Origin: a virus
Strand: one strand, 5' to 3'
IMG/VR virus record: IMGVR_UViG_3300000228_000024
Coordinates: 1 to 33,591 of that record
Length of the DNA: 33,591 nucleotides
Below the pieces are notes generated by a model. It ran no database searches. It saw only the letters and a list, made by a program, of their open reading frames with translations, and was not told the DNA's origin. The number at the start of each line of letters is the position of its first letter. Position 1 is the first letter of the stretch. Shown piece by piece: positions 13,045 through 32,700 of the stretch. A program made the position numbers and the translations under genes.

Positions 13045-13087
13045 ATAACATATTTTGTTATTTAATAATATATTTTTATTACATTTG
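13045..13087 (+). promoter_or_regulatory. Late promoter for terS with shared AT box
   Basis: The Bacteroidota -7 motif TACATTTG is at 13080-13087. TTTG at 13054-13057, 22 bases upstream, can serve as the -33 element (usual spacing 19-21). The stretch 13045-13070 is 25/26 identical to 13661-13686, and its core TTTGTTATTTA recurs at two other late starts. The transcript would have a leader of about 80 bases before terS. Confidence 0.65.
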
Positions 13088-13119
13088 TTGTATAATGTAA
13101 CCAAAGAAAAAGCAATTAA

Positions 13120-13158
13120 GGAACAAAGTGGTATTCTATGTAATTAAATATTTGTTCC
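13120..13158 (+). promoter_or_regulatory. Inverted repeat in the terS leader
   Basis: GGAACAAA (13120-13127) is mirrored by TTTGTTCC (13151-13158), 23 bases apart, just upstream of terS at 13176. It could be a leader hairpin, an operator, or a terminase recognition site, as such sites often lie in or near terS. Confidence 0.45.
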
Positions 13159-13175
13159 AAAATACATAAAATTAT

Positions 13176-13637
13176 ATGCCAGGTGTTAGATCAAGTAAAT
13201 TAGAAACAGAAAAGCGAGTATTCACAATTCAAGGGTGGATAATCAATGGCGTGCCTGATTATTTGATACTAAAGAACATTGAGCAACAGTTCAAAAACAA
13301 AGATGGAGAATTTATCAAAAGAAGACAGGCTAAGGTTTTACTACAAAAGGCTTATAAGATTTGGCACGAAGAACAGGAGGCTACAATTGAGCAAAAAAGA
13401 GCATTGAAAATTTCTAAATTAAAGCAAGATGCTCGCTCTATGGGTGCTGAATTCAAAAACACACCTCAAGGAATGGCTGTTTTATTGAATTACGAAAAGG
13501 AAATAAACAAATTAGAAGCCTTATATCCTACTACTAAAATTATAATTCAAGGCGACAAAGATAATCCTTTGGTAATAACTAATCCAGAAGATAGAGAAGC
13601 ACGTATAGCTGAACTCATAGCCAAAGCACAAAAATAA
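13176..13637 (+). CDS. terS: Terminase small subunit
   Basis: The small terminase subunit recognises phage DNA and directs the large subunit to start packaging. The 153-aa product has an N-terminal helix-turn-helix-like region (about 12-65, with I-Q-G-W-I-I-N-G-V-P-D-Y and R-R-Q-A-K-V-L-L-Q-K-A-Y), a central helical oligomerisation region, and a C-terminal I-I-I-Q-G-D-K-D-N-P strand typical of terminase small subunits. It is the first gene after a terminator and late promoter. terL follows only after a 1.7-kb cassette rather than directly. Confidence 0.75.
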   Translation: MPGVRSSKLETEKRVFTIQGWIINGVPDYLILKNIEQQFKNKDGEFIKRRQAKVLLQKAYKIWHEEQEATIEQKRALKISKLKQDARSMGAEFKNTPQGMAVLLNYEKEINKLEALYPTTKIIIQGDKDNPLVITNPEDREARIAELIAKAQK

Positions 13638-13660
13638 ATCTAACTTTTTTTAAATTTAAA

Positions 13661-13702
13661 ATAACCTATTTTGTTATTTAATAATAATTTATATTATTTT
13701 TG
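13661..13702 (+). promoter_or_regulatory. Promoter of the exported-protein gene, probably leaderless
   Basis: TTTG at 13670-13673 and TATTTTTG at 13695-13702 are separated by 21 bases, a good Bacteroidota promoter. Only four bases lie between the -7 motif and the ATG at 13707, so the transcript would have almost no leader. The segment 13661-13686 repeats 13045-13070 with one mismatch. Confidence 0.7.
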
Positions 13703-13706
13703 ACAA

Positions 13707-14072
13707 ATGAAATTAAGAACATTACTCTTTATTTTCTCAATCTGTATGATTGGATTAACATCGATGGCATCTACACCATTGATGGAGCAGAAACAGAAAA
13801 CAACTATCAGTAAGATAATTATGTCTCCTGTAGTTGCAAACGTAGTAACATTTGATATTATCAGTTTTGATAATGTTGAAATTCAAATGAGCAACACAAA
13901 TGCTCTAACTTTTGTAAAAGAAAAGCAACTCGTAAATCTTGTAACAACAATCAAAGATGTAGGTTGGCCTAATCGAAAGGCAGTTAATTTTATTATATTT
14001 TATAAAGAAATTCAGAATCAAGAAATAATATTTATCGATCCGCTTACTCGAATTTGCAGAAGCAATTGTTAA
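13707..14072 (+). CDS. Exported protein with signal peptide, phage accessory gene
   Basis: The 121-aa product begins M-K-L-R followed by a hydrophobic stretch (L-L-F-I-F-S-I-C-M-I-G-L) and S-M-A-S, a standard Sec signal peptide cleaved near residue 21. No lipobox cysteine is seen. The mature part of about 100 residues is mixed alpha/beta and ends R-I-C-R-S-N-C, with two nearby cysteines. It has its own promoter and terminator and sits between terS and terL, the layout of a moron gene that could act on the host envelope, for example in superinfection exclusion. No family is recognised; function is inference. Confidence 0.7.
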   Translation: MKLRTLLFIFSICMIGLTSMASTPLMEQKQKTTISKIIMSPVVANVVTFDIISFDNVEIQMSNTNALTFVKEKQLVNLVTTIKDVGWPNRKAVNFIIFYKEIQNQEIIFIDPLTRICRSNC

Positions 14073-14095
14073 AGATTAAATCAATTCAATATATC

Positions 14096-14129
14096 AAAAA
14101 CCCTCTCAAAGTGAGCGAGAGGGTTTTTT
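14096..14129 (+). terminator. Intrinsic terminator of the exported-protein gene
   Basis: AAAAACCCTCTC (14096-14107) pairs with GAGAGGGTTTTTT (14117-14129) around a nine-base loop, followed by a T run. It lies 23 bases after the stop of the exported-protein gene and directly before the tRNA-like sequence. Confidence 0.88.
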
Positions 14130-14133
14130 AAAA

Positions 14134-14216
14134 TGGAGTAATGGTAAATGTGGTTAAATCAGCAGTCTGTAAAGCTGTCACCTTTGGTTTTGTAGGTTCG
14201 ATTCCTTCTACTCCTA
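14134..14216 (+). tRNA. tRNA-Tyr (GTA), imperfect class II cloverleaf
   Basis: The anticodon arm is GCAGT (14162-14166), loop CTGTAAA with anticodon GTA at 14169-14171, and GCTGT (14174-14178). A long variable arm with ACC-TTT-GGT follows, as expected for bacterial tRNA-Tyr. The T arm is GTAGG, loop TTCGATT, CCTTC (14192-14208), with one T-T mismatch. GGAGTA (14135-14140) pairs with TACTCC (14209-14214). The outermost acceptor pair is mismatched, position 8 is not the usual U in this alignment, and CCA is not encoded. It may be a diverged working phage tRNA or a decaying one. Confidence 0.7.
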
Positions 14217-14429
14217 CTAAATAAACAACTCATTCCGACAAGTCGGAACATAGAACCTTTCGGGTTGGTAAAGCTCGTCAAATCATTCTGTGATATGCGG
14301 ATTATAGGTGTGGCGTGTAGAAAATTTGAATCGTGTAGCGTTAGATTATTTTGTTCTTTTTTGAACTTTTTGAACAAAATAATCTTATAAAAAACAAATG
14401 TGGGTTGTTTTTAAATTTTAATATAAACT
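14217..14429 (+). other. Non-coding stretch after the tRNA, unexplained, with hairpins
   Basis: No credible gene is present. TTCCGA/TCGGAA (around 14233-14248) and AACC/GGTT (around 14254-14267) can form small hairpins. CGTGTAG occurs twice (about 14316 and 14332). A segment GGTTGGTAAAGCTC followed by CTGTGAT and later TTTGAATC recalls tRNA D, anticodon and T loops, but no cloverleaf closes. Local base composition is richer in G and C than the surroundings. Confidence 0.4.
14343..14385 (+). terminator. 14-bp inverted repeat, possible terminator
   Basis: AGATTATTTTGTTC (14343-14356) is perfectly complementary to GAACAAAATAATCT (14372-14385) around a 15-base T-rich loop that contains a further GAAC. 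The stem is AT-rich and the downstream bases are ATAAAAAAC, so it may be a weak terminator, one acting on the minus strand, or a processing structure for the tRNA transcript. Confidence 0.5.
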
Positions 14430-14609
14430 ATGATTGAAATAGTAAACGGACGTGTTTTTGTCGAAGGTAAAGAAACAATTGATCCAACTCTTATTGGATA
14501 TGAAATGCTTGACTTTGCAGAAACAACAAAACAAGATATTTTATCAATAACATTAAAAGATGGTGATGTTTTTATTGATGATTATGATAATGAAAAAAAA
14601 TTTTTATGA
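14430..14609 (+). CDS. Small hypothetical protein (59 aa)
   Basis: The ATG at 14430 opens a 59-codon frame starting M-I-E-I-V-N-G-R-V-F-V-E-G-K and ending D-D-Y-D-N-E-K-K-F-L. It is acidic and soluble, with beta-strand-like segments (V-N-G-R-V-F-V, D-G-D-V-F-I-D-D). The stop TGA overlaps the next ATG (ATGA at 14606-14609), which supports both frames as real coupled genes. Family unknown. Confidence 0.55.
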   Translation: MIEIVNGRVFVEGKETIDPTLIGYEMLDFAETTKQDILSITLKDGDVFIDDYDNEKKFL

Positions 14610-14746
14610 TAAATATTGAAGAACTACAAACCAAACTTACCGAATTAATAACCCTACGAGACTATTATCTCAAAATTGCTCGTAATGATGAATCTTTGAA
14701 CGAAGAGATTAGAGCAATACAAAAAATTATCTACGAACATAAATAA
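14606..14746 (+). CDS. Small helical hypothetical protein (46 aa)
   Basis: This 46-codon frame (M-I-N-I-E-E-L-Q-T-K-L ... I-I-Y-E-H-K) has the heptad-like spacing of a helical hairpin or short coiled coil. It is translationally coupled to the preceding small gene by an ATGA overlap and lies 18 bases before the methyltransferase gene. No family is recognised. Confidence 0.5.
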   Translation: MINIEELQTKLTELITLRDYYLKIARNDESLNEEIRAIQKIIYEHK

Positions 14747-14764
14747 TAAAAATTATGAATCCAA

Positions 14765-15367
14765 ATGAATTTAACAAAGCAACGTAAAAAAGATACTGGG
14801 GCATTTTACACTCCAAAAATATGGGCTGATTTAGCGTTAAAATATATTTTAGAAGTAGTTAAGGATATAGAATATTTTGTTTTTTTAGATGTTTGTTGTG
14901 GGGAAGGTGCATTGTTAGAGGCATTACCAAAAGGAGTTGAAAAATACGGAACAACTCTAGAATGGGAAGATGTGGAAATTTGCAGAGGTAAAGGCTTACA
15001 GGTATGGAAATTAGATTTTTTAAAAGAGGATATTTCAGAAATTTTGCCACCAAGTAAAATGGAAAGATTAATAATTTTCACAAATCCACCTTACGTTAAA
15101 CTTTCAGCTAATAAATATCCATTACAACAAAAGTACAAAACAAATGACGCTACTGCTTTATTTTATTACAGAATTTTAAAAGAATTGAACCCTCTATTTT
15201 TATGTAGTTTTAACAAATTAGATTTATACCAAGGACAAATACACGAAAGATTTAGAAATGAAACAAATTTAACTGAAAGAACGATAAAACAATTTTTAAC
15301 CCATTCAAAATCATGGAATTTAAAAGGAGATTTTCCTATTAGTTTCAATATAATTTCAGGAATATAA
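14765..15367 (+). CDS. Small N6-adenine DNA methyltransferase
   Basis: The 200-aa enzyme shows T-G-A-F-Y-T-P (11-17), the SAM motif D-V-C-C-G-E-G (42-48), an acidic residue in K-L-D-F near 84, and catalytic N-P-P-Y (107-110), the pattern of gamma-class N6-adenine methyltransferases. It lacks a recognisable target-recognition domain and is shorter than restriction-modification enzymes, and no restriction endonuclease gene is adjacent. It probably methylates phage DNA to resist host restriction. A competing ATG at 14755 is in another frame and stops after ten codons. It lies between terS and terL, an unusual place. Confidence 0.8.
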   Translation: MNLTKQRKKDTGAFYTPKIWADLALKYILEVVKDIEYFVFLDVCCGEGALLEALPKGVEKYGTTLEWEDVEICRGKGLQVWKLDFLKEDISEILPPSKMERLIIFTNPPYVKLSANKYPLQQKYKTNDATALFYYRILKELNPLFLCSFNKLDLYQGQIHERFRNETNLTERTIKQFLTHSKSWNLKGDFPISFNIISGI

Positions 15368-15381
15368 AATGAATTTATTAA

Positions 15382-16851
15382 ATGTTAGAGAACCTCACAG
15401 ATGCTGAAATATTAGAACTTGACTTTCTTTTAACTCAACGTAGAGCCTATGAATTAAAAGAAAGTTTGTTTGAATTCGTAAAAGAGTTCTGGAATGTAAT
15501 TGTTACAAATGAATATGTACATAACTGGCATATTGAGTTCTTATGTAATGAGGTTCAAATAGTATTAGAATGGGTAATAAAAGGAGAGGTAAAACTTTAT
15601 GATTTAATCGTAAACATTCCACCAGGAACATCAAAAAGTACAATTATTTCACGTATGGCACCTGCTTGGCTTTGGGCAAATGATTCATCAAAAACAATCA
15701 TATCAAATACGATTGATAGTAAGAATGCAACCGAGTTTTCTACTTCTACAAAAGATTTAATTCAAAGCGAAAAGTATCAATTGTATTTTCCAGAAGTCAA
15801 AATTAGACGAGATGTTTCTGCAAAAACTTTTTATCAATCAAGCAAAGGCGGTAAAAGATTTTCGTTAACCACTAGAGGTTCATCAACTGGTAAGCATGGT
15901 GATGTTTTGATTGATGACGATCCGATGGATTATACAACGGCTCAAAGTCCAATCGAAGCCAAACGATGTATTGAAGGATTCAAAGCTTTACAAACAAGAA
16001 AAAAGGACAAAGAGAAAGTTCCGTATATTCTGGTTATGCAACGCCTCTCAAAAAAGGATACAACTGCTCACGCTTTGAAAGTTTTGTCAGATGTTCGCCA
16101 TTTATGTTTACCAGCTGAAGACAAATACAACAATATTAAACCAGAAGAAATAAGGAAGTTTTATATTGATGGAATGCTAGACCCAAAAAGGTTGAGTAGA
16201 GAAATTTTGGATAAACAACGAAAAGGGCTTTTAGATGACACAAAACCTATTTCAGACATAGCTTTTGATATTCAGTTCAACCAAGCATCATTATCCGATG
16301 ATAGTCTTTTATATCCAAAAATTAATATGGTAAATCATTTGCCTGCTAATCGTGAAGGCGTACTTAGGTATTCATTTACTGACGTTGCGGACACTGGAAA
16401 AGATTATTTATGTACTTGGTTTATTGAGGTTAATGAAGGGAGAATTTATGTTTATGATTGCATTTATACGCAACAAGGTAGTGCCGTTACAATACCATTA
16501 TTGAAATTGAAAATAGAACAAAACAATTCTATGACAAATAAAATTGAAACAAATAACCAAGGTAGTGTATTCGTTTCTGTTTTGTTAGGGCAAGGTGTAA
16601 ATGTATCTGGTTATTATAGCTCTGGAAACAAAGAAGAGAAAATAAGTGCGTATGCTTCGTTTATGTCTTATTATTATTTTGTAGAGCCAAGAGTGGATCA
16701 GCAAGAATATAAACAAGCGTTGAAGCATTTAGAGAGCTATCCTAAAGATGGCAAAGCAGAAGATGGACACGATGACGCTGAAGATTCATGGACTGAATCA
16801 AGCAGATATTTATACACGAATGCTCGCTATTTATTTACACAAAATCAATAA
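15382..16851 (+). CDS. terL: Terminase large subunit
   Basis: The 489-aa protein is the packaging motor ATPase and nuclease. Visible motifs are Walker A P-P-G-T-S-K-S-T (80-87), Walker B D-V-L-I-D-D-D (174-180), the coupling segment Y-I-L-V-M-Q-R-L-S (215-223), and the RNase H-like nuclease start Y-S-F-T-D-V-A-D-T-G (330-339, Asp334) with a late acidic cluster D-D-A-E-D-S-W near 470. Its stop overlaps the ATG of the next small gene by one base. An ATG at 15369 is out of frame with this protein. Confidence 0.92.
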   Translation: MLENLTDAEILELDFLLTQRRAYELKESLFEFVKEFWNVIVTNEYVHNWHIEFLCNEVQIVLEWVIKGEVKLYDLIVNIPPGTSKSTIISRMAPAWLWANDSSKTIISNTIDSKNATEFSTSTKDLIQSEKYQLYFPEVKIRRDVSAKTFYQSSKGGKRFSLTTRGSSTGKHGDVLIDDDPMDYTTAQSPIEAKRCIEGFKALQTRKKDKEKVPYILVMQRLSKKDTTAHALKVLSDVRHLCLPAEDKYNNIKPEEIRKFYIDGMLDPKRLSREILDKQRKGLLDDTKPISDIAFDIQFNQASLSDDSLLYPKINMVNHLPANREGVLRYSFTDVADTGKDYLCTWFIEVNEGRIYVYDCIYTQQGSAVTIPLLKLKIEQNNSMTNKIETNNQGSVFVSVLLGQGVNVSGYYSSGNKEEKISAYASFMSYYYFVEPRVDQQEYKQALKHLESYPKDGKAEDGHDDAEDSWTESSRYLYTNARYLFTQNQ

Positions 16852-17021
16852 TGAAAGTTTATTCATTAAATACTGACGATATCATTGAAGTTATCCGAAT
16901 AAAAGGAGATGAAGTCATAAAAAAGGAGATGAAATTATCCGATTGGATAAAATTAAAAAAACAAATCGGATATAGGTATATCGCTTATCAAAAAGGATTT
17001 TCAAAATACAAATTAGAATAA
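16851..17021 (+). CDS. Small hypothetical protein (56 aa)
   Basis: The ATG shares its first base with the terL stop (TAATG), indicating coupling. The 56-aa product is strongly basic (M-K-V-Y-S-L-N-T-D-D-I-I-E-V-I ... Y-R-Y-I-A-Y-Q-K-G-F) with a Trp in S-D-W-I-K. No family is recognised. It may belong to the packaging module by position. Confidence 0.5.
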   Translation: MKVYSLNTDDIIEVIRIKGDEVIKKEMKLSDWIKLKKQIGYRYIAYQKGFSKYKLE

Positions 17022-17046
17022 TTTTAATCAATAAATAATTAGGAAA

Positions 17047-17301
17047 ATGGAAGTAACAGGAAAAGTTGTTATTATTGGACAAACAGAAAGCGTAGGTCAA
17101 AACGGATTTACAAAGAGATTATTAGTAGTTGAGGTTGATGGACAATATCCTCAAAAAATTCCAATTGATTTTGTGAAAGATAATACCCAAATGTTGAATA
17201 AAATTTCAGTTGGTCAAGTTGTAACAGTGAAAATTAATTTACGAGGAACTGAAAGTAATGACAAATGGTATTTGAATGCTCAAGGATGGAAGATAGACTA
17301 A
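17047..17301 (+). CDS. DUF3127 family protein, OB-fold-like
   Basis: The 84-aa product matches DUF3127, a family largely confined to Bacteroidota: G-F-T-K-R-L-L-V-V-E (20-29), Q-Y-P-Q-K-I-P-I-D-F (33-42), V-G-Q-V-V-T-V-K-I-N-L-R-G-T-E and W-Y-L-N-A-Q-G-W-K-I-D at the end. The beta-rich pattern is that expected of an OB fold, so nucleic-acid binding is possible. In this genome it lies between terL and portal rather than with replication genes. No recognisable SSB gene is seen elsewhere in the window. Confidence 0.8.
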   Translation: MEVTGKVVIIGQTESVGQNGFTKRLLVVEVDGQYPQKIPIDFVKDNTQMLNKISVGQVVTVKINLRGTESNDKWYLNAQGWKID

Positions 17302-17391
17302 ATCTTAAACTAAATAATTATGTTAAGACCAACAGATATGAAAACTATTGATAATGTTGTGAAAAACATTTAATATAATTTGCTCCTTATT

Positions 17392-17420
17392 AAACCACTT
17401 CAAAAAGGAGTGGTTTTTTT
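17392..17420 (+). terminator. Intrinsic terminator after the packaging unit
   Basis: CCACTTC pairs with GGAGTGG around a five-A loop, flanked by AAA and a run of seven T. It separates the terL/DUF3127 unit from the portal promoter. Confidence 0.85.
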
Positions 17421-17431
17421 ATCATTAAAAA

Positions 17432-17479
17432 TATTATTTTTAATTATTCTAAATAACAAATAAATTTTCATTACATTTG
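17432..17479 (+). promoter_or_regulatory. Late promoter for the head and tail operon, inverted AT box
   Basis: TACATTTG (17472-17479) is a good -7 element, 20 bases before the portal ATG. No TTTG lies at the -33 position. Instead 17432-17465 is the exact reverse complement of 32647-32680, and TAAATAACAAA at 17450-17460 is the core shared with the other late promoters. An activator may replace the -33 contact. Confidence 0.65.
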
Positions 17480-17499
17480 CTTATTGATATTTATTCTAT

Positions 17500-18699
17500 A
17501 TGATGAGTTTTTTTAAAGATACTTCTATTGGTAGATTTTTCAGTAATACTCTTGGAATAAATCCAAAAGATTTTTCTGCTGACATATTTTCAATGAGTTC
17601 ATTTGGAATAGGTGTAGCGGCTAATTCGTATTATTTAGGTTCTGTTGATTTTGTATTACTTCAAGAAAGAAATTTTATTTTGAATAATGTTATTTCTAAA
17701 ATATCGAAGAAGTTTTCAAACGCAAATTTCACAGACGAAAAGGATAGCGAATTGTTAAAAAAAATTAATAATCCAAATAGTTTTCAGTCAAAAGAGGAGT
17801 TTTTAAAAGAGTTTGCAACCTACATTATCTCTTCTGGTTATACGGCTATCTTGAAAAAATATGTGTCGTTTGGTAATTTTGATACAATGGAATTAATAAA
17901 CATTAATCCATGTACGTTGGATTTCAATAAAGATAATGTCACATTTCAATTTGAAAATAAAAATATCACTGTTAATAGTTCCGAACTTATTATTTTTTAT
18001 GATATACGAAGAAACAATTTTGATAAAAAAGGTTATAGTAGAATAATTCCATTAAGGTCTCAATTAGAGAATATTTCTTTGGCTCAAAAAGCTAAAAACA
18101 TTCAAATACAAAATTCTGGAACTACGATTGTTTCTCCAAAAACATCTTCAAATGCAAGTAATGTAGATGAAGGATTGAACGCACCAGTCCCTGTTATGGG
18201 TGGTGGTTTAAAATCCCAAAAGAATGAAATGGAAGATAAATTAAACAATCGTGGTTTAGAAAACAGAATAATTGTTTCATCAAAAGGGTTGGATGCTGTA
18301 AATCTATCTGAAAAGCTAAATAATATTGATTTCTATAAAATAATAGAATCGGATGCATTGGCTGTTTATGATGCTTTTGGATTCCCTATTGAATTATCGC
18401 CTTACGGAAAAAATGCAACTTTTGAAAATAAAGGTCAAGCAGAATTATCTCTTGTTGAAAATGAGTTAATACCTTTATTAAATAGTTTAACAAATTCACT
18501 TAATTCTGAATTTCCAAACAAAGGAAAGATTAAAGGTAATTATAATCACATAGGAGTTATGTCTATTATAAAAAATAGAATTATGGATACTAATCAAAAA
18601 ATAATTACACAATATAAAACATTATTTGATGATAAAATAATCAATGAAAATGAGTATAAAAAAATTCTAATCGAAAATAAGATTTTACATGAAAAATAA
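17500..18699 (+). CDS. Portal protein (HK97-like)
   Basis: The 399-aa product fits phage portal proteins, which form the dodecameric channel at one capsid vertex. Supporting features are the order after terL and before protease and capsid, the N-terminal L-Q-E-R-N-F-I-L-N-N-V-I-S-K-I-S segment, the central G-Y-S-R-I-I-P-L-R-S-Q-L-E-N-I-S-L-A-Q-K helix region (about 180-205), and D-A-F-G-F-P near 290 followed by E-N-K-G-Q-A-E. These match HK97-type portals. ATGATG offers two starts; the first is used here. The last 11 bases overlap the next small gene. Confidence 0.88.
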   Translation: MMSFFKDTSIGRFFSNTLGINPKDFSADIFSMSSFGIGVAANSYYLGSVDFVLLQERNFILNNVISKISKKFSNANFTDEKDSELLKKINNPNSFQSKEEFLKEFATYIISSGYTAILKKYVSFGNFDTMELININPCTLDFNKDNVTFQFENKNITVNSSELIIFYDIRRNNFDKKGYSRIIPLRSQLENISLAQKAKNIQIQNSGTTIVSPKTSSNASNVDEGLNAPVPVMGGGLKSQKNEMEDKLNNRGLENRIIVSSKGLDAVNLSEKLNNIDFYKIIESDALAVYDAFGFPIELSPYGKNATFENKGQAELSLVENELIPLLNSLTNSLNSEFPNKGKIKGNYNHIGVMSIIKNRIMDTNQKIITQYKTLFDDKIINENEYKKILIENKILHEK

Positions 18700-19617: not shown

Positions 19618-19635
19618 CAACAAAAAATTAGAGTT

Positions 19636-20880
19636 ATGTTTCAATACAAAACTGATGCCCAATTAGAGGTAATGTCCGCAGCGGAAAGAGATACTTACGC
19701 TAGTGAAAAAAGAAATCACGAAGCATCTGTTGCAAAAAAAGCAATGGATGAAGCTATTAAAACTTCAACCGATCAAATCGTAAAAGAATTTGACGAAAAA
19801 TTGACCGCTAAAGAAACAGAAATTACTTCTTTAAAAGAAACAGTTGAAGCTCAAGGAGTTAAAATTGTTGAAATGGGAGTAAAATCTAATCCATTAGAAG
19901 GAAATTCTTTGATAAAAGAAATCGAAACCCACAAAGAAGGTTTAGAGGGTTCTGTTAAAAAAGGAAGAGATTACGAATTTGCTCTAAAAGCTGATACTTT
20001 GAGAGCAAATGTAGTTGGGAATCCAAACGCTCTTGACTTGACCGATATTGGTCAATTGGCACACAGAAGTATTACTGTTTACGATGTTTTTAGAAAAGTC
20101 CCTGTCCCTGCTGGTTCAAATGGAGTTGTTCGTTATGTAGATTGGGATCAAGCAACAAGTATAAGAGCTGCTAAAGCTATTGCAGAAGGTACTGATTTTG
20201 TTCAATCAACTGCAAAATGGAAAACAAGTACTTTGACAATTGAAAAAGTTGGAGATATTATTCCAGTAAGTGAGGAATTAATGTACGATGCTCCTTTGTT
20301 TGCAGCAGAATTAAAAAACTTTCTTGAAACAAATATTGCTATCAAAATTGATACGGATTTAGTTTCTGGAAATGGTGTATCGCCAAACATCAATGGTATG
20401 CAAAATCAAATTCCAAATTATGTTCCAGTAGCATCAGGAATTCAAGATTGTAGTATATATGATTTATTGGTTAAAACTAGAGAAGCTATTACTTCTCCTT
20501 ATGGAGGTAAATATTCTCCAAATGTTGCTTTTATGAATATTGTTGATATCAACAAAATGAAATTGAAAAAAGATGGGAATAATAATTATATCATGCCTCC
20601 TTTTGTTGATAAAAATGGAAACACTGTCAATGGACTTTTAATCATTGAATGTAATTCTTATGCTCCAAATACTATGGTTATCGGCGATAATCGCTATGGT
20701 GCTATTTACGAAATCCCTGGTATTTTAGTAGAAACTGGTTACGGAACTGGGGACTTTGAAAGTGATATGATGAGTTTAAAAGCCAGAAAACGCTTGAACT
20801 TATTAATTAGAGATGTTGATAGAACGGGGTGGTTAGAAGTAACAAGTATTTCTGCTGCTCTTACAACTTTAGCAACTTAA
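19636..20880 (+). CDS. Major capsid protein, HK97 fold, with N-terminal scaffold domain
   Basis: The 414-aa protein has a Lys/Glu-rich coiled-coil region over residues 1-100, typical of the delta domain removed by the prohead protease. The HK97-fold body follows, with V-P-V-P-A-G-S-N-G-V-V-R-Y-V (about 155-168), V-G-D-I-I-P-V-S-E-E-L-M-Y-D (about 205-218) and I-D-T-D-L-V-S-G-N-G (about 238-247). The end contains R-K-R-L-N-L-L-I-R-D-V-D, characteristic of the P-domain region. Gene order fits. A cleavage site near 100-115 is expected but not proved. Confidence 0.92.
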   Translation: MFQYKTDAQLEVMSAAERDTYASEKRNHEASVAKKAMDEAIKTSTDQIVKEFDEKLTAKETEITSLKETVEAQGVKIVEMGVKSNPLEGNSLIKEIETHKEGLEGSVKKGRDYEFALKADTLRANVVGNPNALDLTDIGQLAHRSITVYDVFRKVPVPAGSNGVVRYVDWDQATSIRAAKAIAEGTDFVQSTAKWKTSTLTIEKVGDIIPVSEELMYDAPLFAAELKNFLETNIAIKIDTDLVSGNGVSPNINGMQNQIPNYVPVASGIQDCSIYDLLVKTREAITSPYGGKYSPNVAFMNIVDINKMKLKKDGNNNYIMPPFVDKNGNTVNGLLIIECNSYAPNTMVIGDNRYGAIYEIPGILVETGYGTGDFESDMMSLKARKRLNLLIRDVDRTGWLEVTSISAALTTLAT

Positions 20881-24363: not shown

Positions 24364-27300
24364 ATGGCAAACAAAAACGGCATTATAACAAGAAAAGACA
24401 TTATAGAAGATGAAGCTTTAAAATGGGGTCCTGAATATGGAAATCAAGTTCAGATAGCAATTGATAAAAACAAAGAGTGGTCGAAAAGTATTTTGGAAAT
24501 TATTAAAAATCAGAAACTGATTAAAGATGCTCCAAGTCAGAAAGAATATCTATCTGCCCTACAAGAGGCAAATTTAGAAGTAAAAAAATCTATTCTTTTA
24601 ATAAAAGAAAGAGAAGCAGCTGATTTATCTGCCGATAAGATAAAACGCTCCAATATTGCAACAATGGAAGCCGAGCGTAGGCAAAGAGAAGCATCTGAAA
24701 AAGCAATACAACGAGACAATAATGAAAAGGAACGCTCTAAAAAATTGACAATTGAAGAGAGGATACAGAATGAGATAAACAACAAAGCACTCAAACAAGA
24801 AGCATTAGAGCGTTTGGGATTGGTTTCTGCTTACACAAAATTAAACAAAGCAAGAGCCGAGGCAAAAGACAAACTTCGAGAGTTAATTGCTAGTGAAAGT
24901 GCATCTACAGCAGAAATTAAAAAAGCACAAAAGGAATTTGAAAGGCTTGATGTTAAGGTTAAAAACGCAGACCATACTGTTGGCGATTTTAGTAAAAATG
25001 TAGGTAATTATCCTACTTCATTTAAAGGTGCAATAGGGGGTCTTAAAAATTTAGCAGGGGCATTTGGTATAACCGCAGGGGTAACTGCGTTTGTATCTGG
25101 TTTGAAAGATGCGTTTAATACTATTAAAAAATTTGACCAAGGAATAGCCGATTTAAGTGCAATAACAGGGGCGAGTGGGAAAGATTTAGATTATTTAAAA
25201 AACAAGGCTATTGATTTAGGTAAAAACACTAAAGGAGGTGCTATTGCGGTTGTTGAGGCTTACAAGTTAATTGGTTCTGCTAAACCCGAATTACTATCAA
25301 ACGTAAACGCTTTAAATAAAGTTACAGAGGCTACCCTAACTTTAGCACAGGCTTCTGGTATGGAGATGCCACAAGCGGCTACCGCTTTAACAGATGCTAT
25401 GAATCAGTTCGGAGCTGGGGCAGACGAGGCTGGAAAATATATAGATGCTTTAGCAAATGGGGCTAAATATGGGGCTTCTGAAATACCACAAACAACAGAG
25501 GCTTTATTGAAGTTTGGAGCTGTAGCGAGGTCATCAAATATAAGTATAGAAGAAAGCACGGCATTAATTCAATTATTAGCAGAAAATGGGATAAAAGGGG
25601 CAGAAGCTGGCACGGCATTAAGAAATGTTTTACTAAAAATATCAGCTCCAGACGCCTTACCAAAAGAAGCACAATTAGCAATGAAAGATTTAGGTATATC
25701 TTTCGAGATGTTAAAAGATAAAAGCATACCAATAGAAGAAAAATTTAACGCATTAAAACCATTATTAAAAGACAATAAAGACTTAATAAAAGTTTTTGGG
25801 TCTGAGAATATTGTAGCCGCTCAAAATTTAATTGAGCATACGGATAGACTAAAGGAATTAATACCTAAAATGGGTGAGTATGGTACTGCTCAAGAGCAGG
25901 CTACTATCAGAATGGATACGTTAAGCGGAAAGTCAGAAAAACTAGCAAGCACTTATGATAGTTTTATATTGTCAATTGGAAGCGGAAGTGGTACTGTTTC
26001 TAAATTTTTCAAATTATTTATTGATGGAAGTATATCCGCTTTAGAAGGGTTAATTAGATTAAATACTTCTTGGGAAGATTTAAAGAAAAAAGCAGCGGAA
26101 GCTGGGAAAGAAAAAGGAGTTACTGAGTTCGATAAGAGGTTTAAGTTTGCTAAAGAAAACAAACCAAAAGCTAATTTTATAACAGATGAGGTTGGGGATA
26201 ATAAAGAGATAGCAAAAAGAATCAAAAAAGATGCCGAAGAGCAATATAAAATTTATGAAAAAGAATATAATGAAACTGTAAAAAAATTAGCAGTATTAAA
26301 AAAACAGAGTGAGAGTGCATTTTCAGACCCATACGCAATTGATCAAGCAGCTGATGCTGTTCTTAGGGAGCAAGAAAGGCTTACAAAAGAACTTGGGACA
26401 CAAGCATCTATTATAAGAGAAGCTGGAGCGTTTATAAAAGGCAAAAAAGAGCCAGCTCCTACATTTGATAAACCGATTATTAAGGAGGAGGATAAAAAAG
26501 AGGACAAGAAAGAGGACAAGGATAAGGATAAAATAGATAAAGAGAAAAGTCTATCTGATTCATTGTACGAATTGAAAAAACAACGCTTGGAACAATTTAT
26601 AAAACTTAATGAGGAAATAGTTGCGAATGAATTAGAAAGCGACGAAGCTAGAATACTGGCACTTACCAATAGTCAAATAAAACAACACGACTTATTAGTT
26701 TTAGAGAGAGACCACTTATTAGAAAACGATAAATTAAATGCTAATGATAGAATTAGAATTAATGAAGATTACTCTTATAAAATAATAGAATTAAACGAAA
26801 AAACAAAAGAAAAAATAGATAAAATAAACGAGTTTGATTCTGCAAAATATCAAAAAAAATTAGAATTAGAGGTAAAAGGAGAACAGACAAAAGAAAACAA
26901 TTTAATTGCAAAAGAAAACGAAAAGTTTAAGAAAATACTAGATAATAAAAAACTTTCAGAAAAACAAATTGAGGAGGAAACAAAGAAACATGAAGAACGA
27001 TTATTCCAAATAAAAAAAGATGCCGCTATTGCTGTAGCAAATCTTCAAGCGAATAATTTAGAAGCAGAATTACTGGCATTTAAAGCACAGAGTGATGGTT
27101 CTGCTAAATCAACAGCCTTAATTACAGATTTAGAATTAAAATTATCAGAAGCTAGAAAAAAATTAACGGAATTAGGGCTATCGACATTTGAGAAGGGGGA
27201 AGAAGAGAAGTCTAAATCTGCAAGAGAACAAGCCGAAAATATTTTAAACATTTCAAGCGAAATGACCGATGCTCTTGCTGGCTTATCAAGGGCTTTTTCA

Positions 27301-28026
27301 GAGGCTAAGATTGCAAAAATAGACGAAGAGATTAACAAAACAAACGAGTATTATGATAAGCAAATAGAACTTGCAGGGAATGATAATGTACAAAAAGAGC
27401 TATTAGAAAAAGAGCGAGAGAAAAAGAATGCCGAATTAGAGAAAAAGAAAAAAGACGCTAAAAACAAGCAGGCTAAAATAGATAAAGCTGTGGCAATTGC
27501 ACAGGTTACTATAAATACAGCCCTTGCCGTTATAAAAGGATTCTCTGAAAGTACTTATGTTGGTGCGGTATTAGCTGGGGTTCTTGGTGCAATTTCACTA
27601 GCAACTATAATAGCAACCCCAATACCAAAATACAAGCATGGTAGAAAAGGTGGGAGAGAAGAATTAGCCTATGTTGGAGATGGTGGAGTGAGTGAAGTTA
27701 TCGAGAGGGTAACTGGTAAGGTTGAGATTACGCCAGCTACAGATACTTTGGTTAAGTTAAATGCTGGAGATAAAGTACATAGTTCGGTAGATGAATATTT
27801 GAGACTTCAAAAAGCATCTTTACTAACAAGTATTGATATTCAAGGTAGAAAAGTAAGTGATTTTCAAGCTAACCAATTTTTTGAAAAGAGGAATAAAGAG
27901 TTAGTAGAGGAGATGAGGCTTACAAGAAAAGCAATAGAAAAAAATAAATCTAGTGTTGTGGTAAATACACCAAAATTAGATATAAATCATGAGCTTTGGA
28001 AAATGAAAAATACTAACTGGAACTAA
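24364..28026 (+). CDS. Tail tape measure protein, TP901 type
   Basis: The 1220-aa protein sets tail length. After an N-terminal coiled-coil region (about 60-205) comes the TP901 core (about 230-540), seen as G-I-A-D-L-S-A-I-T-G-A-S-G, A-L-T-D-A-M-N-Q-F-G and G-T-A-L-R-N-V-L. A Lys/Asp/Glu-rich linker around 705-735 is followed by long coiled coils. A hydrophobic stretch at about 1041-1085 (with V-L-A-G-V-L-G-A-I-S-L-A) could insert into the host membrane. The ATG starts three bases after the chaperone gene and the stop overlaps the next ATG. Confidence 0.93.
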   Translation: MANKNGIITRKDIIEDEALKWGPEYGNQVQIAIDKNKEWSKSILEIIKNQKLIKDAPSQKEYLSALQEANLEVKKSILLIKEREAADLSADKIKRSNIATMEAERRQREASEKAIQRDNNEKERSKKLTIEERIQNEINNKALKQEALERLGLVSAYTKLNKARAEAKDKLRELIASESASTAEIKKAQKEFERLDVKVKNADHTVGDFSKNVGNYPTSFKGAIGGLKNLAGAFGITAGVTAFVSGLKDAFNTIKKFDQGIADLSAITGASGKDLDYLKNKAIDLGKNTKGGAIAVVEAYKLIGSAKPELLSNVNALNKVTEATLTLAQASGMEMPQAATALTDAMNQFGAGADEAGKYIDALANGAKYGASEIPQTTEALLKFGAVARSSNISIEESTALIQLLAENGIKGAEAGTALRNVLLKISAPDALPKEAQLAMKDLGISFEMLKDKSIPIEEKFNALKPLLKDNKDLIKVFGSENIVAAQNLIEHTDRLKELIPKMGEYGTAQEQATIRMDTLSGKSEKLASTYDSFILSIGSGSGTVSKFFKLFIDGSISALEGLIRLNTSWEDLKKKAAEAGKEKGVTEFDKRFKFAKENKPKANFITDEVGDNKEIAKRIKKDAEEQYKIYEKEYNETVKKLAVLKKQSESAFSDPYAIDQAADAVLREQERLTKELGTQASIIREAGAFIKGKKEPAPTFDKPIIKEEDKKEDKKEDKDKDKIDKEKSLSDSLYELKKQRLEQFIKLNEEIVANELESDEARILALTNSQIKQHDLLVLERDHLLENDKLNANDRIRINEDYSYKIIELNEKTKEKIDKINEFDSAKYQKKLELEVKGEQTKENNLIAKENEKFKKILDNKKLSEKQIEEETKKHEERLFQIKKDAAIAVANLQANNLEAELLAFKAQSDGSAKSTALITDLELKLSEARKKLTELGLSTFEKGEEEKSKSAREQAENILNISSEMTDALAGLSRAFSEAKIAKIDEEINKTNEYYDKQIELAGNDNVQKELLEKEREKKNAELEKKKKDAKNKQAKIDKAVAIAQVTINTALAVIKGFSESTYVGAVLAGVLGAISLATIIATPIPKYKHGRKGGREELAYVGDGGVSEVIERVTGKVEITPATDTLVKLNAGDKVHSSVDEYLRLQKASLLTSIDIQGRKVSDFQANQFFEKRNKELVEEMRLTRKAIEKNKSSVVVNTPKLDINHELWKMKNTNWN

Positions 28027-30251
28027 TGGGAACTATTAATACATCTTTTAACGATAGAGTTCGTTATACTTTAAAAAATAAACATTACGGCTCGTTGGTT
28101 ATAATAGAGCCAATAGGGTGGGAAGATGACGAAAAAGAGTACTCAAGAAATATGCAATATCATGGTATTGTTGCCAAATTTTCTAACTCCTTAAAATTTA
28201 TAGAAGATGGAGGAAAATATATTCAATTAGTTTTAGATACCTATGGAATAAATGAGGAAATTAAATTAATACGAGAGGAAAAGCACCCACATACGGATTT
28301 GTGGACTTTGACATACTATGGCTATTTAGATTTATCCACTTGGGCTAAAGAAAATAATCAATTAAGTGTTAAATTTAACTCTGGAGGATTAGAGCAATTA
28401 TTAAAATCTCGTGAAGGAGAAAATATAGAAATAGATAGGCTTACCACTATTGATGGAGGAGTATTAGACGAACTTAAAAGTGTAAACGTATCTATTGAAG
28501 GAAGGGAAATATTTTTAAATACTAATTATAAAGTAAAAGAAGTAGAAAATAATATAACTTTAAACAATGCAGCTAGGGGGACTACTAGAGGGAGTACTTA
28601 TTGTATTCCTTTGAAATTGGTAAACAAATCGCATGAAGAAGCACACTCTCCAATAGCTGGGACGATGGTTCAAGATAACTACTGGGAAAGGACAGAAAAT
28701 GGAGAAACTGGTTTAATGTTTTTTGCTATTTCTGAGAGGAATAGATTTTTAAGAGTTAAATTCACTTTAAAATTTAAAGCCACTTTTGCAGCTTATAGAT
28801 ATGTTAATTTCTTTATGTTTTTTGTAAGATTAGCTCAATATAGAAATGGGATAAATTATAACATTAAACTAAATAGGTTTTTATTTAGCACTGGTAATCC
28901 TTTAGATGTTCATAATAGAGATTTCTCATTCACTTTTGATGAGGTAATAAATGTAGAGATAGGGGATAGTTTAGCTCTTGTTTTAGACCAAAATTTTGAC
29001 GGTCGTAATGGACAAGATGCGTATGTAGAAATATCGGTTACAAATATAGAATGTGATTTAACAATAGATGAGGATTCTTCTTACGAAAAAACAACTACAA
29101 AAGCTGTTTTAATGCATGAGTTTGTAGATAGATTAGTAAATATTACGACAAATAAAAAAAACTCTTTTTACTCTGATTTTTTAGGGAGAGTTAATCTAAA
29201 TTATCAGTCAGATGGAGATGGTGCGTATTTAGCATGTACGCATGGATTTTGGGTTCGTGGGTTTGATAAGTTACCAATTCCAAGTGAAGAGCCAAAAGTT
29301 GAGAATTTATTTAAACCATTAACAACCTCTTTTAAAGACTGTATAACCTCTCTAAATTCAGTATTCAATATAGGTATTGGAATAGAAAAGGTTGGATATA
29401 GCGAAAGAATAAGATTAGAAGGTTTGGAGTATTTTTACAACAGGAATGTTACGATAAATTTACAAAATCAAGTTAAAAAGGTAAAAAGAAGTATTGCAAC
29501 AGAACTAATTTATTCTAGCGTTACAGCTGGTTACGAAAAGGGAGGTATTTATAAAGAGGCATTTGGTTTAGATGAATTTAATGCAAAATCTAACTATACA
29601 ACAACTATAAGTAGAATTAAAAATGAATTAATTAGATTATCTAAATATAGAGCTGATAGTTACGGAATGGAATTTGCTAGACGTAAAAACATTTTTTTTA
29701 ATAAAACAGAAGATACACCATACGATAAAGATGTTTTCTTTTTAGATTTAAAACAAAACATAGATGGCTTATTTACTCAAAGAAAATGGCAAGATGACTT
29801 AGAGAAACCACCTACTGGTATTTTTAGTCCTAATACCGCCACTAATTTAAGGTTCTCTCCTTTGAATAATATTTTACGTATGGGGTGGGTAGTTTCTTCT
29901 GGACTTATAAAATATCCAACTGATTATTTTAGATACGGAAGCTCAACTGCAAATAGCAAATTAACCACAAAATTAATAGGCAAAAACGAATATAGTGAAA
30001 ACAAAGATATATTAAATTCAAAATTAACAAGACCAATATACGCTCCTGAATGGATTGAGTTTGAGTATATATGTGATTTTGAGGTAATGCAACAAATCGA
30101 GGGTAGTACAACTATTTTAGGAAAAGAAGTGCCAAACTTTTACGGATTAGTTAAATTTATTAACGAGAACAACGAAACAGAATATGGGTTTTTATTTAAT
30201 TTAAAACCAAACAAATCAGGAAATTGGAAAGTATTAAAAGCAAACAAATAA
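28026..30251 (+). CDS. Distal tail or baseplate hub protein
   Basis: The 741-aa product follows the tape measure, where the distal tail/hub protein is encoded. It is beta-rich and starts M-G-T-I-N-T-S-F-N-D-R-V-R-Y-T-L-K, with a typical hub-like N-terminal half and a C-terminal W-I-E-F-E-Y-I-C-D-F and Y-G-F-L-F-N-L-K-P segment. Similar large proteins are common in Flavobacterium phages without detailed assignment. It starts in the overlap with the tape measure stop. No enzymatic motif seen. Confidence 0.7.
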   Translation: MGTINTSFNDRVRYTLKNKHYGSLVIIEPIGWEDDEKEYSRNMQYHGIVAKFSNSLKFIEDGGKYIQLVLDTYGINEEIKLIREEKHPHTDLWTLTYYGYLDLSTWAKENNQLSVKFNSGGLEQLLKSREGENIEIDRLTTIDGGVLDELKSVNVSIEGREIFLNTNYKVKEVENNITLNNAARGTTRGSTYCIPLKLVNKSHEEAHSPIAGTMVQDNYWERTENGETGLMFFAISERNRFLRVKFTLKFKATFAAYRYVNFFMFFVRLAQYRNGINYNIKLNRFLFSTGNPLDVHNRDFSFTFDEVINVEIGDSLALVLDQNFDGRNGQDAYVEISVTNIECDLTIDEDSSYEKTTTKAVLMHEFVDRLVNITTNKKNSFYSDFLGRVNLNYQSDGDGAYLACTHGFWVRGFDKLPIPSEEPKVENLFKPLTTSFKDCITSLNSVFNIGIGIEKVGYSERIRLEGLEYFYNRNVTINLQNQVKKVKRSIATELIYSSVTAGYEKGGIYKEAFGLDEFNAKSNYTTTISRIKNELIRLSKYRADSYGMEFARRKNIFFNKTEDTPYDKDVFFLDLKQNIDGLFTQRKWQDDLEKPPTGIFSPNTATNLRFSPLNNILRMGWVVSSGLIKYPTDYFRYGSSTANSKLTTKLIGKNEYSENKDILNSKLTRPIYAPEWIEFEYICDFEVMQQIEGSTTILGKEVPNFYGLVKFINENNETEYGFLFNLKPNKSGNWKVLKANK

Positions 30252-30255
30252 AATT

Positions 30256-31080
30256 ATGGCAAATTCAATAATAACAATAACATTTAATAATGATATTCCA
30301 ATAGATGGAAAGTTCTATTTAGGAATAGGTCATAATAATTCAGACGGTTGTGGTTCTGTGGGAATAAATAAGTATAAATTTATATGGAAAAATTTAAGAA
30401 GCTCTAGTTATGAAGTGGAAGTAGGACTGCCAACATCTATTTTAGGGGAACGCTCTGCCATTAATTTTATAGAAGCTATTACAAGAGATATATTGTCTGT
30501 TAATAGATATATAATAAATAGAAATGCAAATGTAGTAACTATAACGGCAGAAACTACAAGTGGTAATGGAATTAGCAATTTCACTTACTTTTACAGTCCA
30601 GTTACAATCACAAATTCTATAACAGGACAAAATGACGTAGGCGTAAATAACCAAAATATAGGTATTGCTATAACTAATGTAACATGTGAAGAGTTTAATA
30701 TTGGTTCGATACAGCCTAGGGTATCTACAACGCCATGTAGTAGTGTTTTAATGGCTGTATATACAAGTGAATTAGCAACTAAAATAATTTCTCCAATAGC
30801 AATAAATAATAATACTGAAAACCCATTTATATTTGATGCTATAAGACAACAAGATTTAGAAGTAATTGTTGAGAATATAAATGGGGTTCAAGTAAGCAAA
30901 CTAATAACAACTCCTTATATTTTAGATGTTAATAAGTTTCATTTACAAATAAATAACTCCCCTAATGGAGCTTCTGTTATTGTAAATAATGATACAATGT
31001 ACGGACTTATTTTTAATTATTCATTAGACGATATAAATTGGAATACATTAAATATTTTTAATGGGTTAAGTAGTTGGTAG
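30256..31080 (+). CDS. Minor tail protein, 5' part of a frameshifted gene
   Basis: The 274-aa frame is beta-rich with repeated small domains (I-T-I-T-F-N-N-D-I, V-T-I-T-A-E-T-T-S-G-N-G). It ends I-N-W-N-T-L-N-I-F-N-G-L-S-S-W at a TAG. The ending is abrupt: proteins of this type continue after N-G-L-S with G-S-Y-T-L-Y-I-R-D-Q-Y-G-C, which is exactly what the +1 frame encodes from 31076. Removing one T at 31074-31075 would join the two into about 688 residues. The N-terminal part resembles adhesion-like tail proteins of Flavobacterium phages. Confidence 0.75.
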   Translation: MANSIITITFNNDIPIDGKFYLGIGHNNSDGCGSVGINKYKFIWKNLRSSSYEVEVGLPTSILGERSAINFIEAITRDILSVNRYIINRNANVVTITAETTSGNGISNFTYFYSPVTITNSITGQNDVGVNNQNIGIAITNVTCEEFNIGSIQPRVSTTPCSSVLMAVYTSELATKIISPIAINNNTENPFIFDAIRQQDLEVIVENINGVQVSKLITTPYILDVNKFHLQINNSPNGASVIVNNDTMYGLIFNYSLDDINWNTLNIFNGLSSW

Positions 31081-32320
31081 TTATACTCTTTATATAAGAG
31101 ACCAATATGGTTGTAAAATAAATAAACAATTTGTTGTAAATTCCTATGGTATTAAAGACCCTTATTTTTATATATCAAAAGCTAATTCTATTAGATATGC
31201 AAATAGAGTTACTTGGGAAGATAGTAAAAATTACAAAACAGACGAAAATACTTTGAGTTGTGAGGTAGATGTACAAATGGCTTATAAAGAATTGCAACAA
31301 TTTCAGAGTACAGATATAATTACGACACAATTCAAATCTAACTATTTATCAAATGTTGCATCAATAATAAAAGAAGACGAAACTATTGTAGATATTCCAG
31401 TAGTCAAAAAAGCAAAATATATTAGAATTAAAGACAAGCGAGATGCTATAAAATACAATTTAGAAAATGGCAAAACTGGAATTTATTTTTTACAAGGGAA
31501 TATTTATGACTATGATACAGGAGTGGCAACAGGGGAAAGTTATACTTTAAATGGTTATTTACCTTTATGGGGGGTTATAGGAAATTTTTTATTAATGGAT
31601 ATGGTATGGTATTTAATAGAAGATATTGTTTTTAATAGTTCAAGAAACGCTGATGTTATAGTAATTAGCAATATTTATACTGGTGCAGACGTTGTTGTTC
31701 AAGTAGGGACTATTTACAATCAATTAGATTACGATGTTTACGAATATTCTATTAATATGATAGACTATGTTAATCAAAAATTCACAGTTAAATTAGTAAA
31801 TTCAGACCCTTATTTTACAACTATAACGCATTTATCAGAGACAATATGGTGTAAAGTAAAACACGAAAACGTACTTGAAATTAAATATTACAACACTACA
31901 AATACAGATGTAATGTATAGTACAGGGATTATACATAAAATTAGGATACCTTATTTAAAAGTAAGCGGCAAACTAGAAGAGAATAGTGAAATATATAAAA
32001 CAGATACTAATGTAGTTTTACTAAATACAGACTTATATGAAATAGACGAGTTTAAGTTCGAGCCAGTAACAAAAGAGTTATGGAGAAAAATAATGATTGC
32101 ACTTTCACACGAAAAAGTGTTTATTAATGAAGTTCAGTATGTTAAAAGTGGAGGTTTTAATACAGAAGGACAATTAGAACAGTCAAATTTGTATGTTTTA
32201 ACAGCTACTATGATTAAAACTGGTAATGTTTATAATTCTCAAACAAATGGAAATCTTGACATAAGTGCCTTTGAAATACCAGGTTTAATGACAACCCAAA
32301 ATGGGTATATTAAATACTAA
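31076..32320 (+). CDS. Minor tail protein, 3' part of a frameshifted gene
   Basis: The frame is open from 31070 to 32320 but has no ATG until 31277; a TTG lies at 31253. Its first residues, G-S-Y-T-L-Y-I-R-D-Q-Y-G-C-K, continue the previous frame smoothly, and later sequence (A-V-F-like beta strands, W-Y-L-I-E-D-I-V, L-W-G-V-I-G-N-F) looks like a structural tail domain. It is probably the C-terminal part of the protein starting at 30256. Independent expression from 31253 or 31277 is possible but would lose the beta domain at the junction. The bidirectional terminator at 32326 ends this operon. Confidence 0.65.
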   Translation, partial: GSYTLYIRDQYGCKINKQFVVNSYGIKDPYFYISKANSIRYANRVTWEDSKNYKTDENTLSCEVDVQMAYKELQQFQSTDIITTQFKSNYLSNVASIIKEDETIVDIPVVKKAKYIRIKDKRDAIKYNLENGKTGIYFLQGNIYDYDTGVATGESYTLNGYLPLWGVIGNFLLMDMVWYLIEDIVFNSSRNADVIVISNIYTGADVVVQVGTIYNQLDYDVYEYSINMIDYVNQKFTVKLVNSDPYFTTITHLSETIWCKVKHENVLEIKYYNTTNTDVMYSTGIIHKIRIPYLKVSGKLEENSEIYKTDTNVVLLNTDLYEIDEFKFEPVTKELWRKIMIALSHEKVFINEVQYVKSGGFNTEGQLEQSNLYVLTATMIKTGNVYNSQTNGNLDISAFEIPGLMTTQNGYIKY

Positions 32321-32325
32321 AACAC

Positions 32326-32362
32326 AAAAAAAACGGATAATTAAAAGTTATCCGTTTTTTTT
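32326..32362. terminator. Bidirectional intrinsic terminator between convergent genes
   Basis: AAAAAAAACGGATAA (32326-32340) pairs perfectly with TTATCCGTTTTTTTT (32348-32362) around a seven-base loop. It ends the tail operon on the + strand and, as its right arm lies within the minus-strand gene's 3' end, that gene as well. Confidence 0.92.
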
Positions 32363-32610
32363 ACTTTAAGTTCTTTTTTATAAATTAAAACACTTTTTTT
32401 AGTTTCGTCATCAATAACTGAAATAGTTTTGTTTTCATTATTTATTATAGTATTGTTATTATTAGTAGTATAATGGTGATGTACTGATTTATCCACATAC
32501 TTTGTATTATTATCATTATCACTGCCAAACAAAACTTCGCCAACCCCCCTTCCAAGAAGCCAACCTCCACCTACTAAAACAACAAAAAGCACAAGTATAA
32601 ATAATAACAT
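32341..32610 (-). CDS. Small membrane protein on the minus strand, accessory gene
   Basis: The 89-aa product starts with a strong membrane segment (L-L-F-I-L-V-L-F-V-V-L-V-G-G-G-W-L-L, residues 2-19). A polar, Asn/Asp-rich tail (30-65, with H-H-H-Y and N-N-N-N) and a Lys-rich end follow. There is no lipobox. It is the only minus-strand gene supported in the window, with its own promoter and the shared terminator, so it can be expressed apart from late genes. The layout suggests a moron acting at the host membrane; holin or spanin is less likely because no second lysis gene is near. Function unknown. Confidence 0.7.
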   Translation of the reverse strand: MLLFILVLFVVLVGGGWLLGRGVGEVLFGSDNDNNTKYVDKSVHHHYTTNNNNTIINNENKTISVIDDETKKSVLIYKKELKVKKTDNF

Positions 32611-32614
32611 ATAC

Positions 32615-32622
32615 CAAAATTA
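32615..32622 (-). promoter_or_regulatory. Minus-strand -7 promoter element, leaderless start
   Basis: On the minus strand the sequence reads TAATTTTG, then GTAT, then ATG of the 89-aa gene at 32610. The TAnnTTTG motif four bases before the ATG implies an essentially leaderless mRNA, like that of the exported-protein gene at 13707. A -33 element is not clear. Confidence 0.55.
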
Positions 32623-32646
32623 CAATAAATAATTTATTTATTATTT

Positions 32647-32700
32647 ATTTATTTGTTATTTAGAATAATTAAAAATAATAAATAATTTTTATTACATTTG
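32647..32700 (+). promoter_or_regulatory. Late promoter for the tail-fibre-like gene with shared AT box
   Basis: TACATTTG lies at 32693-32700, 19 bases before the ATG at 32720. The box 32647-32680 is the reverse complement of 17432-17465 over all 34 bases and contains TTTGTTATTTA (32652-32662). The core TTATT-TAG-AATAA is a perfect 5+5 inverted repeat. The box lies between divergent promoters and could serve both. Confidence 0.65.

Follow-up and report, generated by a model that had tools for sequence, protein, structure and literature searches.

The window analysed here, a linear 33.6-kb IMG/VR virus record (IMGVR_UViG_3300000228_000024, 33,591 nucleotides) with a gene order of the Bacteroidota-phage type, raises the question of what reads a short sequence that recurs beside four of its promoters, P1 to P4. 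A sequence-only reading of the window had taken the repeats for one phage-specific box, read by a single regulator of late genes. Comparison with related phages and host genomes replaces this picture by two boxes: the element of P1 and P2 and the element of P3 and P4 are different motifs with 11 bases in common. The first, box B, is a dyad that includes a normal -33 element. The second, box A, is not particular to the phage; judged by its sequence and genomic surroundings, it is the Fur box of Flavobacteriia. On balance, a Fur-family protein at box A probably controls P3 and P4, the promoters of both structural operons.

The shared core, TTTGTTATTTA, has four exact copies in the window, at 13054, 13670 and 32652 on the forward strand and inverted at 17450, the positions reported earlier. 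The same word read backwards, used as a control, does not occur. All four copies are intergenic, against 0.08 expected under a first-order Markov model for the 2,745 intergenic bases, and the whole-window search thus found no scatter of the exact motif in coding DNA. Beside each copy lies a TAnnTTTG element (13080, 13695, 17472 and 32693), as had been described, and all four promoters have the -7 element of Bacteroidota sigma-A promoters. Two longer matches were also confirmed: positions 13045-13070 share 25 of their 26 bases with 13661-13686, and the segments 17432-17465 and 32647-32680, each 34 bases long, are perfect reverse complements. In a canonical Bacteroidota sigma-A promoter, a -33 TTTG lies about 17-23 bp upstream of the -7 TAnnTTTG. 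Such a TTTG is present 22 bp from the -7 in P1 and 21 bp from it in P2; the two promoters correctly said to have none are P3 and P4.

It is extremely improbable that the shared words are chance matches in AT-rich DNA or copied promoter pieces without function. The intergenic DNA of the window is 77% A+T, and with one mismatch allowed the 11-mer matches 11 times for 9.3 expected, which is no excess over chance; the 11-mer alone is therefore a weak definition of the element. P1, moreover, resembles an additional and degenerate copy located at a recombination junction. Against chance or copying stand the number of exact copies, the 34-bp inverted repeat, for which the longest counterpart in 300 simulated intergenic sets was 18 bases, and the conservation of the sites across phages with about 60% identical proteins. 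This conservation already contradicts the chance reading for P2, P3 and P4, and leaves it possible for P1 only.

The exact 11-mer at all four promoters is an argument for one regulator that reads the TTTGTTATTTA core at each of them. It is also in favour of such a regulator that the box-B half-site AACATATTTTGTTA lies between box A and the -7 in L037 (P3) and G008 (P3 and P4), which indicates that the two controls can be combined in one promoter; a meeting of this kind is not clear in the window itself. However, relatives keep box B at P2 and box A at P3 and P4, so that one box for four promoters is not supported, and the 11-mer itself is not conserved. A common reader of all four promoters is thus very unlikely.

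Box A is a 23-bp palindrome, TTATTTAGAATnATTCTAAATAA, of which the 34-bp repeat of the window is a degenerate copy. At P3, the box TTATTTTTAATTATTCTAAATAA (17434..17456, forward strand) has two mismatches to TTATTTAGAATNATTCTAAATAA and is followed after 15 bp by the -7 TACATTTG (17472..17479, forward). At P4, the P3 element stands in inverse orientation as TTATTTAGAATAATTAAAAATAA (32656..32678, forward), 14 bp before the -7 TACATTTG (32693..32700, forward). The opposite orientation matters little because the element is palindromic. These are the only two window sites within four mismatches of box A. The copies in the window deviate at 2 of 22 positions and those of most relatives at 0-3, with a 7-1-7 palindrome, TTAGAATnATTCTAA, within ATTTAGAATnATTCTAAAT. 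The dimer site suggested earlier is borne out insofar as the P3/P4 element is palindromic, but the proposed repeat TTATT-TAG-AATAA is only about half of the 23-bp palindrome.

In L007, L008 (TerL about 60% identical), L061 and L062, the palindrome is located after a terminator and before a -7, upstream of the portal gene. A scan with TTATTTAGA-N5-TCTAAATAA recovered the same 23-bp palindrome, often perfect, ahead of TAnnTTTG in many phages. Among 79 promoters with box A (at most five mismatches) 8-18 bp from a -7, the distance is 11-15 bp in 70 and exactly 12 bp, the mode, in 34. Box A stands in for the -33 in the promoters of the relatives, its centre about 24 bp upstream of the -7. For an unbiased test, phages were chosen through TerS or TerL and not through the box, and homologs of the P4 gene were taken from whole records. 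A canonical or variant box A precedes the gene of the approximately 220-residue head protein (MAVKPEIIKARLKALFPKANLSQKRLD...) at 13/13 promoters, and it lies upstream of the P4-gene homologs at 15/16 promoters, two of which are near copies; the lone exception, G004, has a poor match. The earlier idea of real regulatory sites at promoters ahead of structural genes is thereby supported.

The identity of box A emerges from the genomes of the hosts. The published Fur box of Riemerella anatipestifer is ATTTAGAATTATTCTAAAT, accompanied by electrophoretic mobility shift assays on four promoter fragments holding predicted boxes (PMC5609570), and rhuB adds the Fur-box sequence ATTTAGAATTATCCTAAAT (PMC10986502). 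Box A shares with the Flavobacteriia Fur boxes (PMC5609570) the core ATTTAGAATnATTCTAAAT, the intergenic location and the position close upstream of a regulated start. Cellular genomes, mainly of Bacteroidota, hold at least 119 stretches with the exact 23-mer; among the matches listed, 115/119 are intergenic and 4/119 lie inside open frames. The genes that adjoin it encode TonB plug or TonB-dependent receptor domains (13 of the 101 proteins scanned), FUR (3), and further HmuY, VIT1 and E1-E2 (P-type) ATPase. With up to two mismatches, box A is present in 78/81 Flavobacterium genomes, where a reversed control pattern is nearly absent, and its neighbours, as read from translations, are hemA, sufS, imelysin-like and TonB-type genes, among others. 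Many Flavobacterium genomes also contain the exact TTATTTTTAATTATTCTAAATAA of the window. In L389, L397, L399 and L406, the four loci that were read, it precedes homologous secreted proteins of about 480 residues, whose gene looks like one of the CarboxypepD-reg/TonB type.

The phage sites differ from the host sites in two respects: they head structural operons, not iron genes, and their distance from the -7 is fixed at 11-15 bp, in promoters that lack a -33. Where a host box has a -7 nearby, the distance is mostly 4-6 or 24-26 bp. Several apparent host boxes at 11-14 bp belong to prophages. Exact box A also occurs in a second recurrent context, in L240, L243, L246, L247, L251, L259, L272 and about a dozen more viral contigs, where it is flanked by GCATTATAT... 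and, at the opposite end, GGAAT... and has no -7 at 8-20 bp; this is possibly another virus group altogether.

In five phages both promoters carry a variant box, TTATTTAG-N-CTAAATAA, which may alternatively represent a pair of degenerate Fur sites that overlap with an offset of six bases. The class of the box agrees between P3 and P4 in all 13 phages in which both are readable (5 variant, 8 canonical). On the TerS tree the variant label is scattered, with 5 changes, 2 of which are forced by well-supported branches. Because the class agrees at both promoters, one factor probably reads both in each phage; the single regulator claimed earlier is very likely for P3 and P4, but not for all four promoters.

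This factor could be a late activator of the phage outside the Fur family, and the likeness of box A to the host Fur box could be convergence. The phage-particular spacing, the variant box in five phages and the class agreement would fit such an activator, as would the lack of a detectable Fur domain in most box-A phages. However, box A is identical at 22 specified bases to a host regulatory site that has a Fur-regulon context, a likeness that convergence would not easily produce, and a search for a shared regulator gene beside box A found none that stood out. We consider this explanation unlikely.

For control by a Fur-family protein, the motif identity, position and conservation of box A and its Fur-regulon context in hosts suggest both binding at the box and switching of the late genes; gene content and -7 position, in turn, point to the lateness and the start sites of these promoters. 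The binder would most likely be host Fur, or a phage-encoded Fur-type domain where the phage has one. Box A at its fixed distance would take the place of the -33, like an activator site. Activation and plain repression are nearly balanced, with a slight lean to activation: box A occupies the place of the -33 at constant spacing, which resembles activator-dependent promoters without an upstream element. It is possible, if somewhat doubtful, that host Fe-Fur locks the late operons by repression, and that the lock is opened by replication titrating Fur, by iron shortage or by a phage product that removes Fur. Numerous boxes in the phages match the host Fur box perfectly, the Fur protein of R. anatipestifer acts as a repressor (PMC10986502, PMC7976709), and 29/34 phage records are without a detected Fur-type domain, which makes host Fur the obvious reader. 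The difference in spacing between host and phage boxes speaks against a lock, and the phage promoters may be weak unaided because they have no -33.

Fur-type DNA-binding domains were detected by profile search in 5/34 phage records (L007/G003, L054/G029, L053/G014, L046/G028 and L041/G009), in proteins encoded at L358:1345-1683 (G003), L054:4022-4357, L053:7681-8025, L046:6982-7365 and L041:11251-11703. No full Fur protein was found above the Pfam cut-off in 26 phage records, and in four of the five phage proteins the Pfam FUR match, over positions 2-63, is sub-threshold. None of the five has a recognisable metal-binding half. The L007 protein, 112 residues long, ends after the winged helix, as does the likewise 112-residue L054 protein; because both end just past the DNA-binding domain, we speak of Fur-type domains and not of Fur proteins. 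For the predicted fold of the L007 protein, the top 19 Foldseek hits are all Fur, PerR or Mur. Sequence matches to protein A and Pumilio in the PDB were dismissed as repeat-summed artefacts.

Most of the phage Fur-type domains are fused to a small IEIxNGRVFVxGKET N-terminal domain, and the C-terminus varies freely among relatives. In L007, L054, L053 and L046, the N-terminus is homologous to a small protein of the window, IEIVNGRVFVEGKET... (14431..14607, forward), to which no Fur-type domain is fused. This small IEIVNGRVFVEGKET protein was rejected as a general regulator, its C-terminus being unrelated to Fur in most phages. A Fur-type domain is present in 3/5 variant-box phages and 0/8 canonical-box phages; the association is only suggestive because G028 has the domain together with a canonical-like box. 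As a tentative and rather unlikely elaboration, the metal-sensor-free phage domain might be an iron-blind late activator acting on copies of the host Fur box, and sister phages without it might use host Fur, which would make their virion production depend on cellular iron.

Several observations weigh against control of the structural operons by a Fur-family protein. Fur is usually a repressor, and a host activator would provide no timing because it would be ever-present. The domain is detectable in just 5 of the phage records, and the profile search found none in the window. The fold prediction for the L007 protein has a predicted local distance difference test (pLDDT) score of 73.5, and no Foldseek E-value is under 0.001, the best being 0.02. 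The box-A copies of the window carry their 2 mismatches. The class agreement of P3 and P4 could stem from swapping of the whole late module as a block, and the fixed spacing might in part be inherited with promoter pieces that were copied, an event that does occur, as the 34-bp identity shows.

Box B has the consensus AATAACATATTTTG-N-CAAAATATGTTA, which runs into the TAnnTTTG, with the -33 TTTG at 21 bp. In P1 (13045..13087, forward), upstream of the TerS-like gene, the left arm ATAACATATTTTG holds the -33 TTTG (13054-13057), the right arm is degenerate and the -7 is TACATTTG (13080-13087). In P2 (13661..13702, forward), the dyad surrounds a canonical promoter with the -33 TTTG at 13670-13673 and, 21 bp further, the -7 TATTTTTG at 13695-13702. 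In an alignment of 27 sequences, gapless relative to the -7 and drawn from the P2 region after TerS and from P1 of the window, the dyad axis lies 16 bp upstream of the -7, where 323/486 mirrored positions pair, compared with 221 at the next best axis. The inner eight pairs co-vary (139, versus 110 after shuffling between sequences; 0/5000 shuffles), as do the outer ten (184 versus 168; 3/5000 shuffles), the shuffle counts being inflated by the kinship of the sequences and not strict probabilities. Box B thus looks like an operator-like dyad over a normal promoter, kept by compensatory changes and read by a factor other than that of box A, which would place P1 and P2 under separate control. As a host regulator site it was rejected: GTAACATATTATGTTAC with at most one mismatch occurs in just 4/81 Flavobacterium genomes. 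A terminator hairpin in RNA is disfavoured, since no part of the dyad, which reaches from the -33 to the -7, is downstream of the predicted start; a cruciform or hairpin function is possible.

P1 and P2 would thus be promoters of the usual -33/-7 kind, controlled by a second dyad operator, and P2 would drive a short variable cargo unit. Among relatives, in which P2 often lies 3' of a T-rich stretch or terminator, this unit is a secreted-type peptide of about 124 residues that starts 4-23 nucleotides past the -7, a tRNA, or a short transcript with a hairpin-T terminator. In L037, L051, L054 and L055, a P2-type promoter is followed within about 50-80 nucleotides by such a terminator with no clear gene, and these transcripts are candidate small RNAs. 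In L036 and L049, structured-looking stretches without clear long genes follow P2, before tRNA-Phe or tRNA-Tyr. P2 of the window precedes a secreted-type protein of 121 residues (13707..14072, forward), predicted to be nearly leaderless and P2-driven, with a hairpin-T terminator (about 14100-14128) and tRNA-Tyr (14134-14217) 3' of it. Besides the window itself, only the near twin L019 has P1; in the other TerS relatives a coding gene stands there instead. Between P1 and TerS, positions 13090-13175 hold an apparent remnant of a coding gene that has lost its frame (end ...EQ..ILDIIKSLFPNT in relatives), and this stretch is likely the recombination junction through which P1 was brought in.

Replication and recombination genes occupy the left part of the window, and packaging, head and tail genes follow rightward: the TerS-like gene (13176-13637, forward), named from its place and relatives; TerL, at 15382; the portal protein gene (PF04860; 17500..18699, forward), the first of the head operon; and the major capsid gene at 19636, with tail genes after it. 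The P4 gene (32720..33591, forward), open at the window end, encodes a probable tail or receptor-binding protein. Box A at P4 sits between this gene and a divergent one for a small membrane-type protein (32341..32610, reverse) read away from P4, an arrangement found likewise in the Flavobacterium prophages G037 and G038. In G037, the prophage of Flavobacterium sp. 1355, box A lies at C4:34218 and 48577. Among named phages in INPHARED, no match was found for the late-region DNA, TerS or the approximately 220-residue head gene. The twin L019 (96-98% identical) is without window segments 6178-8559 and 8655-12999, the latter of which carries a methylase-helicase fusion; these differences represent cassette gain or loss immediately left of the packaging genes. 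At the left end of the record (1-297), 27-bp tandem repeats encode a nine-residue DNARVDIIQ-type repeat, and a duplicated block together with 22-nucleotide GTTTAGGGGTACTTAAACAGGG repeats is found at 3918-4568, within and past the gene at 3533-4306.

Taken singly, the elements are known: Fur boxes, promoters of the -7 type, and activator boxes in place of a -35. In Stx1 prophages of E. coli, the stx1 promoter is regulated by Fur, so that there is a precedent for a phage promoter that carries the Fur box of the host; stx1 is a cargo gene, whereas box A serves both structural operons of many phages. In T4 middle promoters, the MotA box is found instead of the -35, at constant spacing, and host RNA polymerase is recruited through it. 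Box A resembles it as a fixed-distance box in place of the upstream element; it differs in being the site of a host regulator, and activation by it is a proposal. In contrast to T4 MotA, we know of no co-activator for box-A promoters. P2 recalls the lambda pR'/Q system and moron cassettes in being an isolated promoter between the terminase genes, with an operator over the -33 to the -7 and, in several relatives, a short terminated transcript; it differs in that no Q-like protein was identified and that its cargo is a secreted-type peptide, a tRNA or a short transcript. The open-access literature searched contained neither the combination of Fur box, -7 promoter and activator-like box position at structural operons across a broad group of phages nor phage Fur DNA-binding domains without a metal sensor, and nothing was found there on late transcription control in Bacteroidota phages, a topic about which little is known.

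The comparisons suggest that in a group of uncultivated viruses from Flavobacterium-like bacteria the structural promoters bear a Fur site, perfect or nearly so, at a fixed distance from the promoter core, and that a Fur-type protein, that of the host or in some phages one encoded by the phage, times the structural genes. A named regulator would thus explain a cryptic repeat in raw metagenomic DNA, and cultured lysogens such as Flavobacterium sp. 1355 would offer a testable handle. If the proposal is true, a site of the host iron regulator at both structural operons would tie virion production to the iron state of the host.

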